A DNA stretch of 64,000 bases from Acidobacteriota bacterium (GTDB lineage: Bacteria > Acidobacteriota > Terriglobia > Terriglobales > Acidobacteriaceae). The stretch covers positions 1 to 64,000 of the forward strand of contig JABBOG010000005.1 of assembly GCA_019351975.1 (NCBI GenBank), written 5' to 3'. Of the stretch, positions 14,398-20,921 are shown in pieces (within the stretch, counting starts at the first letter, position 1; the number at the start of each line of letters is the position of its first letter). The notes under the pieces are model-generated. The model was not told the DNA's origin. It saw only the letters and a program-made list of their open reading frames with translations, and ran no database searches. Made by a program: the position numbers and the translations under genes.

Positions 14398-15432
14398 CTA
14401 CTGACGCCTTAACTGCCCCACCCGCTCCACAATCTTCGCCACCTGCGCGTCGTTGCTGTAACCGTCCCGCACCGCGCGCTCTCGCCCCGCGCGCGCAACC
14501 CGCTCCCGCGCCGCCTCATCCGGCAGATACTGCCGAATCTTCGCCGCGCACTCCTCAAACCCCGTAAAGAACACGGCCTCTTCGCCATCCACAAACCGCG
14601 CATCATGGCCTGCCGACCGCTCCGCCAGCAGAAATCCACCGCACGCTGCAATCTCAAAGCTTTTATGCACAAACTCATCCTGATTCGAGTGCGTGATAAA
14701 GCTCAGGTTAATCTTCGACCGCCAGATAGCCTCGCGATACTCCCGCCCATACAGCTCCGATCCCGTATACAGCGCCCTCGCCGCCTCCGCATCCAACCGC
14801 TCCTTCCACATCCGATCCCCAGAGATCACCACAGGAAACCCACATTCTCTCCACAGCCTCGTCAAAAACGCTGGCCGGTCGTCATACGACGTCCCGATGA
14901 ACGACACGCCCCGGTCTCTGTCGCGGTCGCTCCACGGCCCTTCGACCGGAAAATGGATCGTCGGCTCATACGCCGTCTGGATCTTGATCACATCCCGCGC
15001 ACCACGCTCCCTATAGTCTGCGATGTTCTTGTCCCGCTGCACCACATGCAGATCGAAGTGCGGAATGTCCTTCATATACAGCCGCCAGCCCGGATCACGC
15101 CTCGGCCCAAACGCGTTGTCGATCATATAACTCACCGACGCCACACCCATCACTCGCAGCCGATCCAGCGTCTCTGGCCACAGCCCCAGCAGCTTGTCCG
15201 CCCAGAAAACATCTGGCCGCTCACGCTCCGCCACCGCCAGAATATCCCGGTTCAGCCGCACCAACCACGGCCCCATCTGCGCCCGATGCACCACCTTCCG
15301 CAGCAGCGCGCTCTCCGGCTGATACTCCAGACAGTTCAGCCGCACAACCGTATGCCCCAGCCGCTCCAGCGCCCACGCCCTGTACTGCGCCGAATCGTTC
15401 GCCGACAGCTGCGACGCATACAAGATCTTCAA
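14398..15432 (-). CDS. CgeB-like glycosyltransferase family protein
   Basis: MKILYASQLSANDSAQYRAWALERLGHTV...; C-terminal KSFEIAACGGFLLAERSAGHDARFVDGEEAVFF typical of the CgeB/DUF3880 group. Confidence 0.75.
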   Translation of the reverse strand: MKILYASQLSANDSAQYRAWALERLGHTVVRLNCLEYQPESALLRKVVHRAQMGPWLVRLNRDILAVAERERPDVFWADKLLGLWPETLDRLRVMGVASVSYMIDNAFGPRRDPGWRLYMKDIPHFDLHVVQRDKNIADYRERGARDVIKIQTAYEPTIHFPVEGPWSDRDRDRGVSFIGTSYDDRPAFLTRLWRECGFPVVISGDRMWKERLDAEAARALYTGSELYGREYREAIWRSKINLSFITHSNQDEFVHKSFEIAACGGFLLAERSAGHDARFVDGEEAVFFTGFEECAAKIRQYLPDEAARERVARAGRERAVRDGYSNDAQVAKIVERVGQLRRQ

Positions 15433-15468
15433 CCCGCCACCCCGTTCGCCCTGCCCTCGGCGCGCACC

Positions 15469-16764
15469 TTACTTCTCCCGCAACTGCGCAATCACCTGCT
15501 CCGCGTGGATCGCCCCCGCAACCCGTCCGTGATGGTCCACCACCGGCAGCGACCGCAGGTTGTACTTGTCAAACAGCTCCGCCACATACTTGTCATCCGC
15601 ATCCAGCGAGCAGTGCACGTTATGCCCCTCCGACAGCGTCTCCAGCACCGTCGCCGGAGTCGCCAGAAGCAGCCTTGGCAGCATCACCACGCCAACCAGC
15701 TTCTCGTTCTCCCCCAGCAGATAAACCTCTGTAATCGTATCCGGATCGCCCTCAAAGCTTCGCAGCCGCTCCACAGCGTCGGCCACCGTTGCATCCTTCG
15801 GCGCGCTCACAAAATCCGTGGTCATCCGGCCAGCAGCGGAATCCGCCGAAAACTCCAGCAGCTCCTCCACATCCTGCCGCTCCTCCGGCTCCATCTCCTC
15901 CAGAATCGCCTCGGACTCCTCGTCCGTCATCTCCGACAGCACATCCGCCGCCGCGCCCGGGTCCATCTCCTCCAGAATGTCCGCCGCCCGCTCCGAGTCC
16001 AGCCCCTGCAGCAGCGCCTTCTGCATCTTCGGATCGACTTCCTCCAGCGTCTCCGCCGCCGTCTCCTCCGGCAGACTCGCAAACACCGCCTCGCGCTCAC
16101 CCGGAGCCAGATCCTCCAGAATGTCCGCAATGTCCGACGGGTGCAGCTTCGCCAACCGCTGCTGCCCAATCTTCAGCCTTACCCTGCGCGCCGGATCGCG
16201 CTCAATCAGGTCCACGCACGACCACGGAATCACATGCGATTTGAACCTCTCCGCCACACCATCCACAGCCATCACCGGCAGCCCCTTCAGCAGCCGCCGC
16301 AGCGCTCCACGATTTCCAACCTCAACTTCCACCACCCGCAGTCCCGCCGCGCCCACTTCTCCGTTCCCATTCCCCGACGCCTTCTCCCACGCCAGATTCA
16401 CGTCATTCACGCGCACCACCTTGCGCCCGTCCACGTCGATGATCTGCTGATCCATCAGGTCGTAATCCAGCAGCAGAAAATCGTTCTTCTCCGCATACAT
16501 GCGCGGCGCAGTCTTTGCCCGCAGCGCCTTGCCTCGCTCCTCCGGCCAAATCACCTCATGTACCGGAAGCATCGCCCTGTCCGCCTTCTTTCCACCCTTC
16601 GGACGCAACACCAGCGCCGCCACATGCGTCTGGTCCTTCGACACGTCCACTGCAAACTCCTGCACCCGCCCGCAGACCTTCCCGTCCGCGTCCAGAACGC
16701 TCCGCCCCACCAGCGCAGACACGCTCGTCTCCATCGTCACCGGCACTGTCAGCAATTCATTCAT
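15469..16764 (-). CDS. soluble PRC-barrel + MgtE N-terminal domain + CBS pair protein
   Basis: PRC-barrel-like N-terminus (LVGRSVLDADGKVCGRVQEFAVDVS), MgtE_N repeats (LHPSDIADILEDLAPGEREAVFASLPEETAAETLEEVDPKMQKALLQGLDSERAADILEEMDPGAAADVLSEM), CBS pair; no TM helices evident. Start ATG 16764. Confidence 0.85.
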   Translation of the reverse strand: MNELLTVPVTMETSVSALVGRSVLDADGKVCGRVQEFAVDVSKDQTHVAALVLRPKGGKKADRAMLPVHEVIWPEERGKALRAKTAPRMYAEKNDFLLLDYDLMDQQIIDVDGRKVVRVNDVNLAWEKASGNGNGEVGAAGLRVVEVEVGNRGALRRLLKGLPVMAVDGVAERFKSHVIPWSCVDLIERDPARRVRLKIGQQRLAKLHPSDIADILEDLAPGEREAVFASLPEETAAETLEEVDPKMQKALLQGLDSERAADILEEMDPGAAADVLSEMTDEESEAILEEMEPEERQDVEELLEFSADSAAGRMTTDFVSAPKDATVADAVERLRSFEGDPDTITEVYLLGENEKLVGVVMLPRLLLATPATVLETLSEGHNVHCSLDADDKYVAELFDKYNLRSLPVVDHHGRVAGAIHAEQVIAQLREK

Positions 16765-16887
16765 GGTTTCACTTACTAACCTAACCCATTCGATGCAGAT
16801 CCGCCCAAATCCATCTAGCCCACGCCAACATCGGTCCACCGCACCAGCAGCCCATCTCTCCCGCAGCGCCGTGCAGTTCCCAAGCCG

Positions 16888-18285
16888 CTAACTCCCCACC
16901 ACCCCCGGAACCACCGCCGCCACCTGATGCAGCTGCTGCCACATCATCACCACCGTCAACCCCACCACAATCACCGTCGTCGCATACGCCACCCAATTGA
17001 ACCAGTGCGAGTTCGTATGCGATCCCATCAGCGCCTTGTTATTCACCAGCCGCAGCATGAAGTACAGCACAAACGGCAGCAGCACTCCATTGAGCACCTG
17101 CGACAGAATCGTCATCGTCACCAGCGGAAAGTTCGGGATCAGCACCACCGCCGCTCCCGCCGCGATCAGCAGCGTATACAACCAGTAAAAAAACGGCGCC
17201 TGCTTGAACTTCTTGTCCACCCCACTCTCAAACCCCAACCCTTCGCACACGCTGTACGCCGTTGAGATCGGCAGCACCGACGCCGCAAAGAACGACGCAT
17301 TGAACAGCCCCGCCGCGAACAGAATGTACGCAAAATCCCCCGCCAGCGGCCGCATCGCCTGCGCCGCATCCGACGGCACCGCAATATTCCGCATCCCCGC
17401 CCGGTACAGCGTCGCAGCGCACGCCACAATAATGAACCACGCCACAATATCCGTAAAAAACGACCCCACAATCACATCCAGCCGCGACGCCGAATACTGC
17501 TTGACCGTAATCCCTTTTTCCACCACCGACGACTGCAGATAAAACTGCATCCACGGCGCAATCGTCGTCCCCACCACGCCCACCACCATGTACACATAAT
17601 CGTGGTCGCGCCACACGCGCCCGTCCGGCGGCCGCACCGTCTCCACCAGCGCCCTGTGCCAGTCCGGCTGCGCCATCACACCCGCAATGATGTAGCAAAC
17701 ATAAAACACGCTCGCCACAAGAAAGATCTTCTCCACACTCTTGTAGTCGCCCTTCACCACCAGCGCCCACACCGCCAGCGCGCACATCGGCACGCTCGCA
17801 TACTTACTCACATGAAATAGCTGCAGCGACCCCGCAATCCCCGAGAACTCCGCAATCACATTGCCGAAGTTCACCACCACCAGCAGCACCATCAGCACAA
17901 ACGTCATCCGCAGCCCGAACTCTTCGCGGATCAGATCGCTCAAGCCCTTGCCCGTCACCACGCCCATCCGCGCGCACATCTCCTGCACCACAATCAGCGC
18001 AATCGTGATCGGGATCATCGTCCACAGCAGCTTGTATCCAAACTGCGCGCCCGCCTGCGAATACGTCAGGATCCCGCCCGCGTCGTTATCGACGTTGGCC
18101 GTAATAAACCCCGGTCCCAGCACCGCAAAGAATAAAAAGAGGCTCGTCCTGTACCGCCGCCAGAAGCTCACACCCGCACCACCACACTCAGAATCGCCCC
18201 GTAACCCGCCGCGCTGCGTCCCATCGCCGCCCTCACACAAGCTCCGCGCTGGACCGGCATCTGCATCGTTTTCTCCTGGGCTCAA
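16888..18285 (-). CDS. Nramp-family divalent metal transporter (NRMT-like variant)
   Basis: VLGPGFITANVDNDAGGILTYSQAGAQFGYKLLW (TM1) and VVGVVGTTIAPWMQFYLQSSVVEKG (TM6) align to Nramp signature regions; ~11 hydrophobic segments. Start codon uncertain. Confidence 0.88.
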   Translation of the reverse strand: MSPGENDADAGPARSLCEGGDGTQRGGLRGDSECGGAGVSFWRRYRTSLFLFFAVLGPGFITANVDNDAGGILTYSQAGAQFGYKLLWTMIPITIALIVVQEMCARMGVVTGKGLSDLIREEFGLRMTFVLMVLLVVVNFGNVIAEFSGIAGSLQLFHVSKYASVPMCALAVWALVVKGDYKSVEKIFLVASVFYVCYIIAGVMAQPDWHRALVETVRPPDGRVWRDHDYVYMVVGVVGTTIAPWMQFYLQSSVVEKGITVKQYSASRLDVIVGSFFTDIVAWFIIVACAATLYRAGMRNIAVPSDAAQAMRPLAGDFAYILFAAGLFNASFFAASVLPISTAYSVCEGLGFESGVDKKFKQAPFFYWLYTLLIAAGAAVVLIPNFPLVTMTILSQVLNGVLLPFVLYFMLRLVNNKALMGSHTNSHWFNWVAYATTVIVVGLTVVMMWQQLHQVAAVVPGVVGS

Positions 18286-20270: not shown

Positions 20271-20921
20271 ATGACCCTCGACACCCTCCTCCACGAAGCC
20301 GAAGTCGCCCACGGCCACCTTTGCGCCGGCCAGGTTCTCGGCGTCCGCATGGCGATGCTCGCCCTCGATCGCCTCGGCATCTCCGATCCCCGATCCCGCT
20401 ATCTCAGCGACGAATCCCTCAACCCCGACCGCAAGCGCCTCGTAACCTTCGTCGAAATCGACCGCTGCGCCACCGACGCCATCGCCGTCGTCACCGGCTG
20501 CCGCGTCGGCAAGCGCGCCCTCAAGCTCCGCGACTTCGGCAAGATGGCCGCCACCTTCGTCGATCTCAACCAGCGCCTCGCCGGCACCGATGATGACAAA
20601 GCCCTTAGCCACGACTACAAGGCCCTTCGCATCGTCGCCCTCGAGACCTCCAAAGCCCTCGCCCGCTCCCTCTACCCCGAACTCGACAAAAACGCCCAGC
20701 AGATGCGCGCCTACCGAGAACTCCCCGACGCCGACCTGTTCACCGCCACGTGGGTTCGCGTCCCCCTCCCACCCAACGAATTTCCCGGCTACAAAGGCAC
20801 CCGCGCCACCTGCGACGCCTGCGGCGAAGGAATCAACTTCGACCGCTTCATTGACCGCGACGGCGTCCGCCTCTGCCTCGCCTGCGCCACCCCATCCCTC
20901 CGCTACTACCACCCCTTCTAA
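20271..20921 (+). CDS. FmdE-family protein with C-terminal zinc-finger-like CxxC...CxxC
   Basis: HGHLCAGQVLGVRMAMLALDRLG...VEIDRCATDAIAVVTGCRVGKRALKLRDFGKMAATFVD; TCDACGEGINFDRFIDRDGVRLCLACA. Confidence 0.85.
   Translation: MTLDTLLHEAEVAHGHLCAGQVLGVRMAMLALDRLGISDPRSRYLSDESLNPDRKRLVTFVEIDRCATDAIAVVTGCRVGKRALKLRDFGKMAATFVDLNQRLAGTDDDKALSHDYKALRIVALETSKALARSLYPELDKNAQQMRAYRELPDADLFTATWVRVPLPPNEFPGYKGTRATCDACGEGINFDRFIDRDGVRLCLACATPSLRYYHPF

Follow-up and report, generated by a model that had tools for sequence, protein, structure and literature searches.

The window analysed here, a stretch of 64,000 nucleotides, comes from a soil bacterium of the family Acidobacteriaceae; within the genome collection, Granulicella and other members of this family are its closest relatives. 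A sequence-only reading had proposed a two-gene Mg2+ module, namely an Nramp-like transporter next to a soluble MgtE-like protein, and both open reading frames were found on the minus strand where it had placed them. The features are:

16888..18171, minus strand: NRMT (Nramp-related Mg2+/Mn2+ transporter), about 427 aa (Pfam Nramp, EleNRMT match, tree)
18073..18084, minus strand: TM1 metal motif D-A-G-G (DxxG; canonical Nramp: DPGN) (sequence, alignment)
17557..17568, minus strand: TM6 metal motif T-T-I-A (TxxA) (sequence, alignment)
15469..16764, minus strand: soluble partner, 431 aa, with PRC barrel region, MgtE_N and two CBS domains (Pfam, model, Foldseek)
16561..16725, minus strand: PRC barrel of the partner, PF05239 (Pfam E=2.6e-6; a beta-rich stretch of the AlphaFold2 model)
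15844..16146, minus strand: MgtE_N domain (PF03448) of the partner (Pfam, residue alignment to TtMgtE)
15475..15825, minus strand: CBS pair of the partner (Pfam, residue alignment, Foldseek)
14398..15432, minus strand: glycosyltransferase-like gene (PF13524), context without a shown role (Pfam)

The transporter frame spans 16888-18285 and matches the Pfam Nramp family (E=9.8e-101). Notwithstanding the open frame up to 18285, comparison of sequences makes the GTG at 18171 the most likely start, because the orthologous frame in locus L004 opens with GTG at the same residue. The partner frame (15469-16839) lies downstream on the same strand, and its likely start is the ATG at 16764, giving 431 aa. 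Elsewhere in the window (20271-20921) an FmdE domain is fused to a DksA/TraR-type zinc finger. The window and 16 related loci were searched against Rfam at the gathering threshold without finding an M-box, and no other Rfam element came up near the pair; riboswitch control of the pair was rejected for want of an Rfam riboswitch match. A scan for sigma-70 promoters and terminators around the pair gave nothing above shuffled sequences, a result that carries no information in this GC-rich genome.

Transporter family and metal site

The TM1 motif of the transporter reads, in its wider context, DNDAGG and the TM6 motif GTTIAPWM. When aligned with EleNRMT and DraNramp, the alanine of TTIAPWM falls on the canonical methionine ligand and the glycine of DAGG on the canonical asparagine, so that the loss of the soft methionine and the replacement of asparagine by glycine, both read from the sequence before, were borne out. 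APWM indeed lies at 17548-17559; NDAGG is present too, but spans 18073-18087 instead of ending at 18090. According to the EleNRMT study (PMC8806188), DxxG-TxxA/T is the signature of NRMTs and DxxN-A/CxxM that of canonical Nramps, and EleNRMT moves Mg2+ and Mn2+ without H+. The window transporter, with DAGG and TTIA, carries the former signature. Its best match in the PDB is EleNRMT at 373 bits, compared to 91 bits for the best canonical chain, DraNramp, and identities are 46.8% over 404 aa and 24.7%, respectively. In a maximum-likelihood tree of 43 proteins, canonical Nramps and all NRMTs were split with support of 100/100, and the window protein grouped with EleNRMT, as against a second deep NRMT clade, at 85/88. 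It thus stands with characterised NRMTs outside the canonical Nramps and shows neither the DPGN and MPH site nor a placement in clades A, B or C, which rules out canonical MntH on motifs and tree. Judged by these sequence criteria the transporter is an NRMT, a member of the Nramp-related Mg2+ transporter class.

Divergent forms were seen as well. NRMTs of about 60% identity in L016 and L099 (G. mallensis and a genome of the window's genus) read GATVAPWQ, with the threonine of TxxA changed to alanine, yet their partners are still about 66% identical. A contig labelled Verrucomicrobia (L018) encodes an NRMT nested within the Acidobacteriaceae and is probably a mislabelled or mixed MAG.

The partner protein and its MgtE-derived residues

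Pfam confirmed the same-strand neighbour as an MgtE_N (E=4e-27) and CBS (E=3e-12) protein with a PRC barrel, that is, the cytosolic domain set of MgtE. The membrane channel was sought by profile and gave no PF01769 match, the protein has no membrane part, and the sequence stops about five residues past the CBS pair so that the plug helix is missing. The AlphaFold2 model (mean pLDDT 85.6) shows the MgtE_N helical repeat and the CBS pair along with two segments rich in beta structure, and the ten top PDB matches from Foldseek were without exception MgtE structures or soluble portions thereof (E down to 5.5e-19). Whole-domain TM-scores against MgtE reached only about 0.5 of the target, which indicates that the relative placement of the domains in the model differs from MgtE. 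A search of the paper collection for the PRC barrel together with MgtE or Nramp found no paper.

In MgtE of T. thermophilus (TtMgtE) the cytosolic Mg2+ sites include D91/D247 (Mg4), D226/D250 (Mg5), D95 (Mg6) and E59 (Mg7), with E258/D259 on the plug helix as Mg2/Mg3 ligands (PMC5882242), and the ATP site is formed by Y170, R187, D188, N203 and F227 (PMC5529423). Among the Mg2-Mg7 and ATP-site residues tested, E59 and D95 are the sole survivors in the window partner. The Mg4 ligand D91 is a glycine, D247 is replaced, the CBS pair carries D226N, D250A, Y170E, R187P, D188R and F227L, and E258 and D259 are absent altogether. The same pattern runs through the Acidobacteriaceae-type partners (82 rows), in all of which position 95 is D, position 59 is E or D, 226 is N and 227 is L, while 91 is G, S, A or E, 247 mostly Q or H and 250 mostly A or S. 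Genome G184, which we take to be Acidobacterium capsulatum, shares YNL residues at the 226/227 positions with the window partner; its NRMT and partner are 69% and 54% identical to those of the window, and the NRMT motifs are DNDPNGI in TM1 and GTTIAPWMQF in TM6. In other Acidobacteriota families D247 is retained by most partners, D91 also by most of those in the first NRMT clade, and Y170/R187 by several, but all of these partners terminate before or inside the plug helix; true MgtE genes included as controls retained the plug residues. Judging from this survey inside and outside the Acidobacteriaceae, loss of Mg4 is largely restricted to the family and loss of the plug is general. That the Acidobacteriaceae partner has been stripped of most MgtE Mg2+ sites and of the ATP site is new, and it makes the notion of an MgtE sensor simply carried over too simple.

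Transporter inventories and gene linkage

NRMT orthologs were defined as scoring at least 454 bits, a clear gap from the next scores down at 302, and were found in 36 of 149 Acidobacteriota genomes and in nearly all sampled Acidobacteriaceae. The source genome of the window (3.9 Mb, 132 contigs, 95% complete) has three Nramp-family genes: the window NRMT, a canonical MntH with DPGN/MPH at a separate locus (L001), and a divergent NRMT-like paralog. The latter (L003, contig C61, 1-1194, at the contig edge) reads NDAGA/GTTIAPWQ, is 35% identical to the window NRMT, and its relatives in the Acidobacteriaceae have no MgtE_N neighbour. Searches of this 95% complete genome found neither CorA nor an MgtE channel, and the best MgtA match scored 211 bits, none exceeding the NCBIfam cut-off of 610.75. 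CNNM-type genes are present and were excluded from the importer count. The absence of CorA, MgtE and any MgtA over the cut-off alongside a separate canonical MntH favours a Mg2+ role for the NRMT, a point not made before. Of the 149 genomes, 5 of the 36 with NRMT encode an MgtE channel, compared with 82 of the remaining 113 (p=5e-10); when each family is represented by a single genome, the median p is 9e-6 and the 95th percentile 2.7e-4, the families themselves being related. Both CorA and MgtE are absent from 15 of the 36 versus 5 of the 113, and 11 of these 15, the source genome included, also have no MgtA over the cut-off; CorA is present too in six same-family relatives with NRMT. That NRMT and the MgtE channel seldom co-occur is likewise new, and together with the frequent absence of CorA and MgtE it suggests that NRMT takes the place of MgtE as Mg2+ importer. 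In five genomes (G133, G125, G141, G030 and G088) the open frames with MgtE channel domains measure just 350-380 aa or so, which leaves no room for the channel together with its usual N-terminal sensor domains; such frames occur in genomes with NRMT-type genes and in others.

The NRMT might instead be, physiologically, a Mn2+ importer that leaks Mg2+, with a partner answering to Mn2+ or to something else. When Acp2977 of A. capsulatum was assayed with and without Acp2976 in a Mg2+-transport-deficient B. subtilis, Mn2+ uptake was restored in full and Mg2+ uptake recovered only with Mg2+ in the low millimolar range (PMC4072509), and the lack of a Mg2+ riboswitch at the window pair points the same way. 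Heterologous rescue is a poor guide to the physiological substrate, however, and the A. capsulatum TM1 is DPNG and not DAGG, whereas EleNRMT, with an identical site, carries Mg2+ (PMC8806188). The source genome moreover already has a canonical MntH and nothing else recognisable as a dedicated Mg2+ importer, and the rarity with which NRMT and the MgtE channel share a genome also speaks against a Mn2+ importer. We consider this reading possible but rather unlikely. On the added evidence, Mg2+ is the favoured physiological substrate in the source genome; as main substrate it is plausible rather than proven, in view of the rescue behaviour of the A. capsulatum ortholog (PMC4072509). Of the earlier proposal, the NRMT-type metal site and the place in the NRMT clade are supported.

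The proposed association of the transporter with a channel-less MgtE_N/CBS gene held in a survey of the 36 NRMT-bearing Acidobacteriota genomes, which is new, and in other phyla. An MgtE_N gene is present in every one of the 36, and in 26 of them it lies on the same strand, no more than 6 kb from NRMT; the partner is upstream in 25 of these 26 linked pairs, the window alone having it downstream. In the second deep NRMT clade the MgtE_N gene follows directly downstream in 9 of 9 genomes. Family membership and site residues, like the conserved linkage, can be read directly from the genes. In the 80 partner relatives surveyed, the partner usually comes first, followed by a glycosyltransferase-like gene and then NRMT, all on a single strand; some partners adjoin NRMT directly, and for some no NRMT lies within the DNA examined. 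The window order across 14398-18171 (NRMT, partner, glycosyltransferase) is unlike that of the relatives and reflects a local rearrangement. Apparent NRMT-partner fusions were dismissed, since long frames such as one of 1147 aa in G129 are overlapping open frames and both genes exist separately in that genome. Full-length partner homologs borne on plasmids of Bacillota, Pseudomonadota and Actinomycetota adjoined an Nramp gene with NRMT-type or close motifs in all five cases inspected. Three such pairs (L153, Citrobacter; L155, Cellulomonas; L156, Arthrobacter) have ArsR/SmtB regulators nearby and two of the three adjoin heavy-metal P-type ATPases, which may point to a connection with metal stress.

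The partner could also act independently of NRMT, for example as an envelope-linked adaptor or sensor through the glycosyltransferase, or by buffering or chaperoning metal in the cytosol. In most close relatives the glycosyltransferase gene comes straight after the partner gene and NRMT only after that, partner and NRMT are unlinked in 10 of the 36 genomes, the plug helix and most MgtE Mg2+ sites are gone, and a chaperone role was raised by Shin et al. as well (PMC4072509). Across phyla, however, NRMT and not the glycosyltransferase is the constant neighbour, and every surveyed NRMT genome has an MgtE_N gene, so that we regard independence as unlikely. A chance neighbourhood of canonical MntH and degraded MgtE, for which only the unusual NRMT-first order among same-clade pairs examined would speak, is extremely improbable and is ruled out by the tree placement, the intact and conserved partner family and the linkage across genomes and phyla.

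Proposed function and comparison with known systems

With slightly better than even confidence we favour the joint reading that NRMT is the main Mg2+ importer here and its neighbour a dedicated accessory that modulates it, and we infer both Mg2+ as physiological substrate and a physical or regulatory interaction of the two proteins. As an NRMT, the transporter is a LeuT-fold SLC11-related carrier, and its enlarged DxxG/TxxA site would take Mn2+ and also Mg2+ in largely hydrated form, with no coupling to H+; it is probably the main Mg2+ importer of the source genome, with canonical MntH handling Mn2+. The PRC-MgtE_N-CBS protein would most likely be a dedicated cytosolic accessory modulating NRMT, perhaps via feedback on divalent metal.

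The further proposal that the MgtE sensor was re-used to gate the transporter in trans fared less well. The domains are of MgtE type, but the partner lacks the plug helix, the ATP site and the majority of the Mg2+ sites, which argues against a simple carry-over of the sensing mechanism, and co-expression of Acp2976 gave no further gain in rescue (PMC4072509). Since that assay scored improved rescue and a feedback inhibitor would give none, trans-gating is neither shown nor excluded by it; it covered only rescue at low Mg2+, and the effect of a feedback inhibitor is expected at high Mg2+. A bolder and doubtful interpretation is that the Acidobacteriaceae rebuilt the MgtE sensor as a detachable trans regulator of a LeuT-fold Mg2+ carrier, responding to a signal unlike that of MgtE, with plug helix, Mg4/Mg5 and ATP site lost and the Mg6/Mg7 N-domain residues and PRC front end kept. 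If true, a gating module would have passed from one transporter fold to an unrelated one, and this would be a new kind of modular regulation. The Acidobacteriaceae are a family in which NRMT looks like the main Mg2+ importer, and with the kept and lost sensor residues named, the role of the partner can be addressed with defined mutants.

The pairing of NRMT with an MgtE fragment is genuine, but it was known before: Shin et al. reported in 2014 that MgtE-fragment genes adjoin most NrmT genes and proposed feedback regulation in trans, besides the chaperone role, for the fragment (PMC4072509). The window pair, adjacent and on the same strand, is an ordinary member of this known pairing, and the trans-gating idea of the sequence-only reading is the published hypothesis, recovered from sequence alone. 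Closest is the A. capsulatum ACP2976/ACP2977 pair, with orthologous transporter and partner on a single strand and the same trans-feedback idea; it differs in that the window has the transporter first and DAGG instead of DPNG in TM1. The M-box, which only a subset of such pairs carries, is absent from both and present in Clostridium NrmT pairs. Compared with MgtE (2YVY, 2ZY9, 5X9G), the partner shares MgtE_N and the CBS pair but has no channel or plug helix, has lost the Mg4, Mg5 and ATP residues and has an additional PRC region. EleNRMT of Eggerthella lenta (PDB 7QIA/7QIC/7QJI/7QJJ), for which an accessory protein is not among the subjects of the text portions searched (PMC8806188), is identical to the window transporter in both NDAGG and GTTIAPWM.
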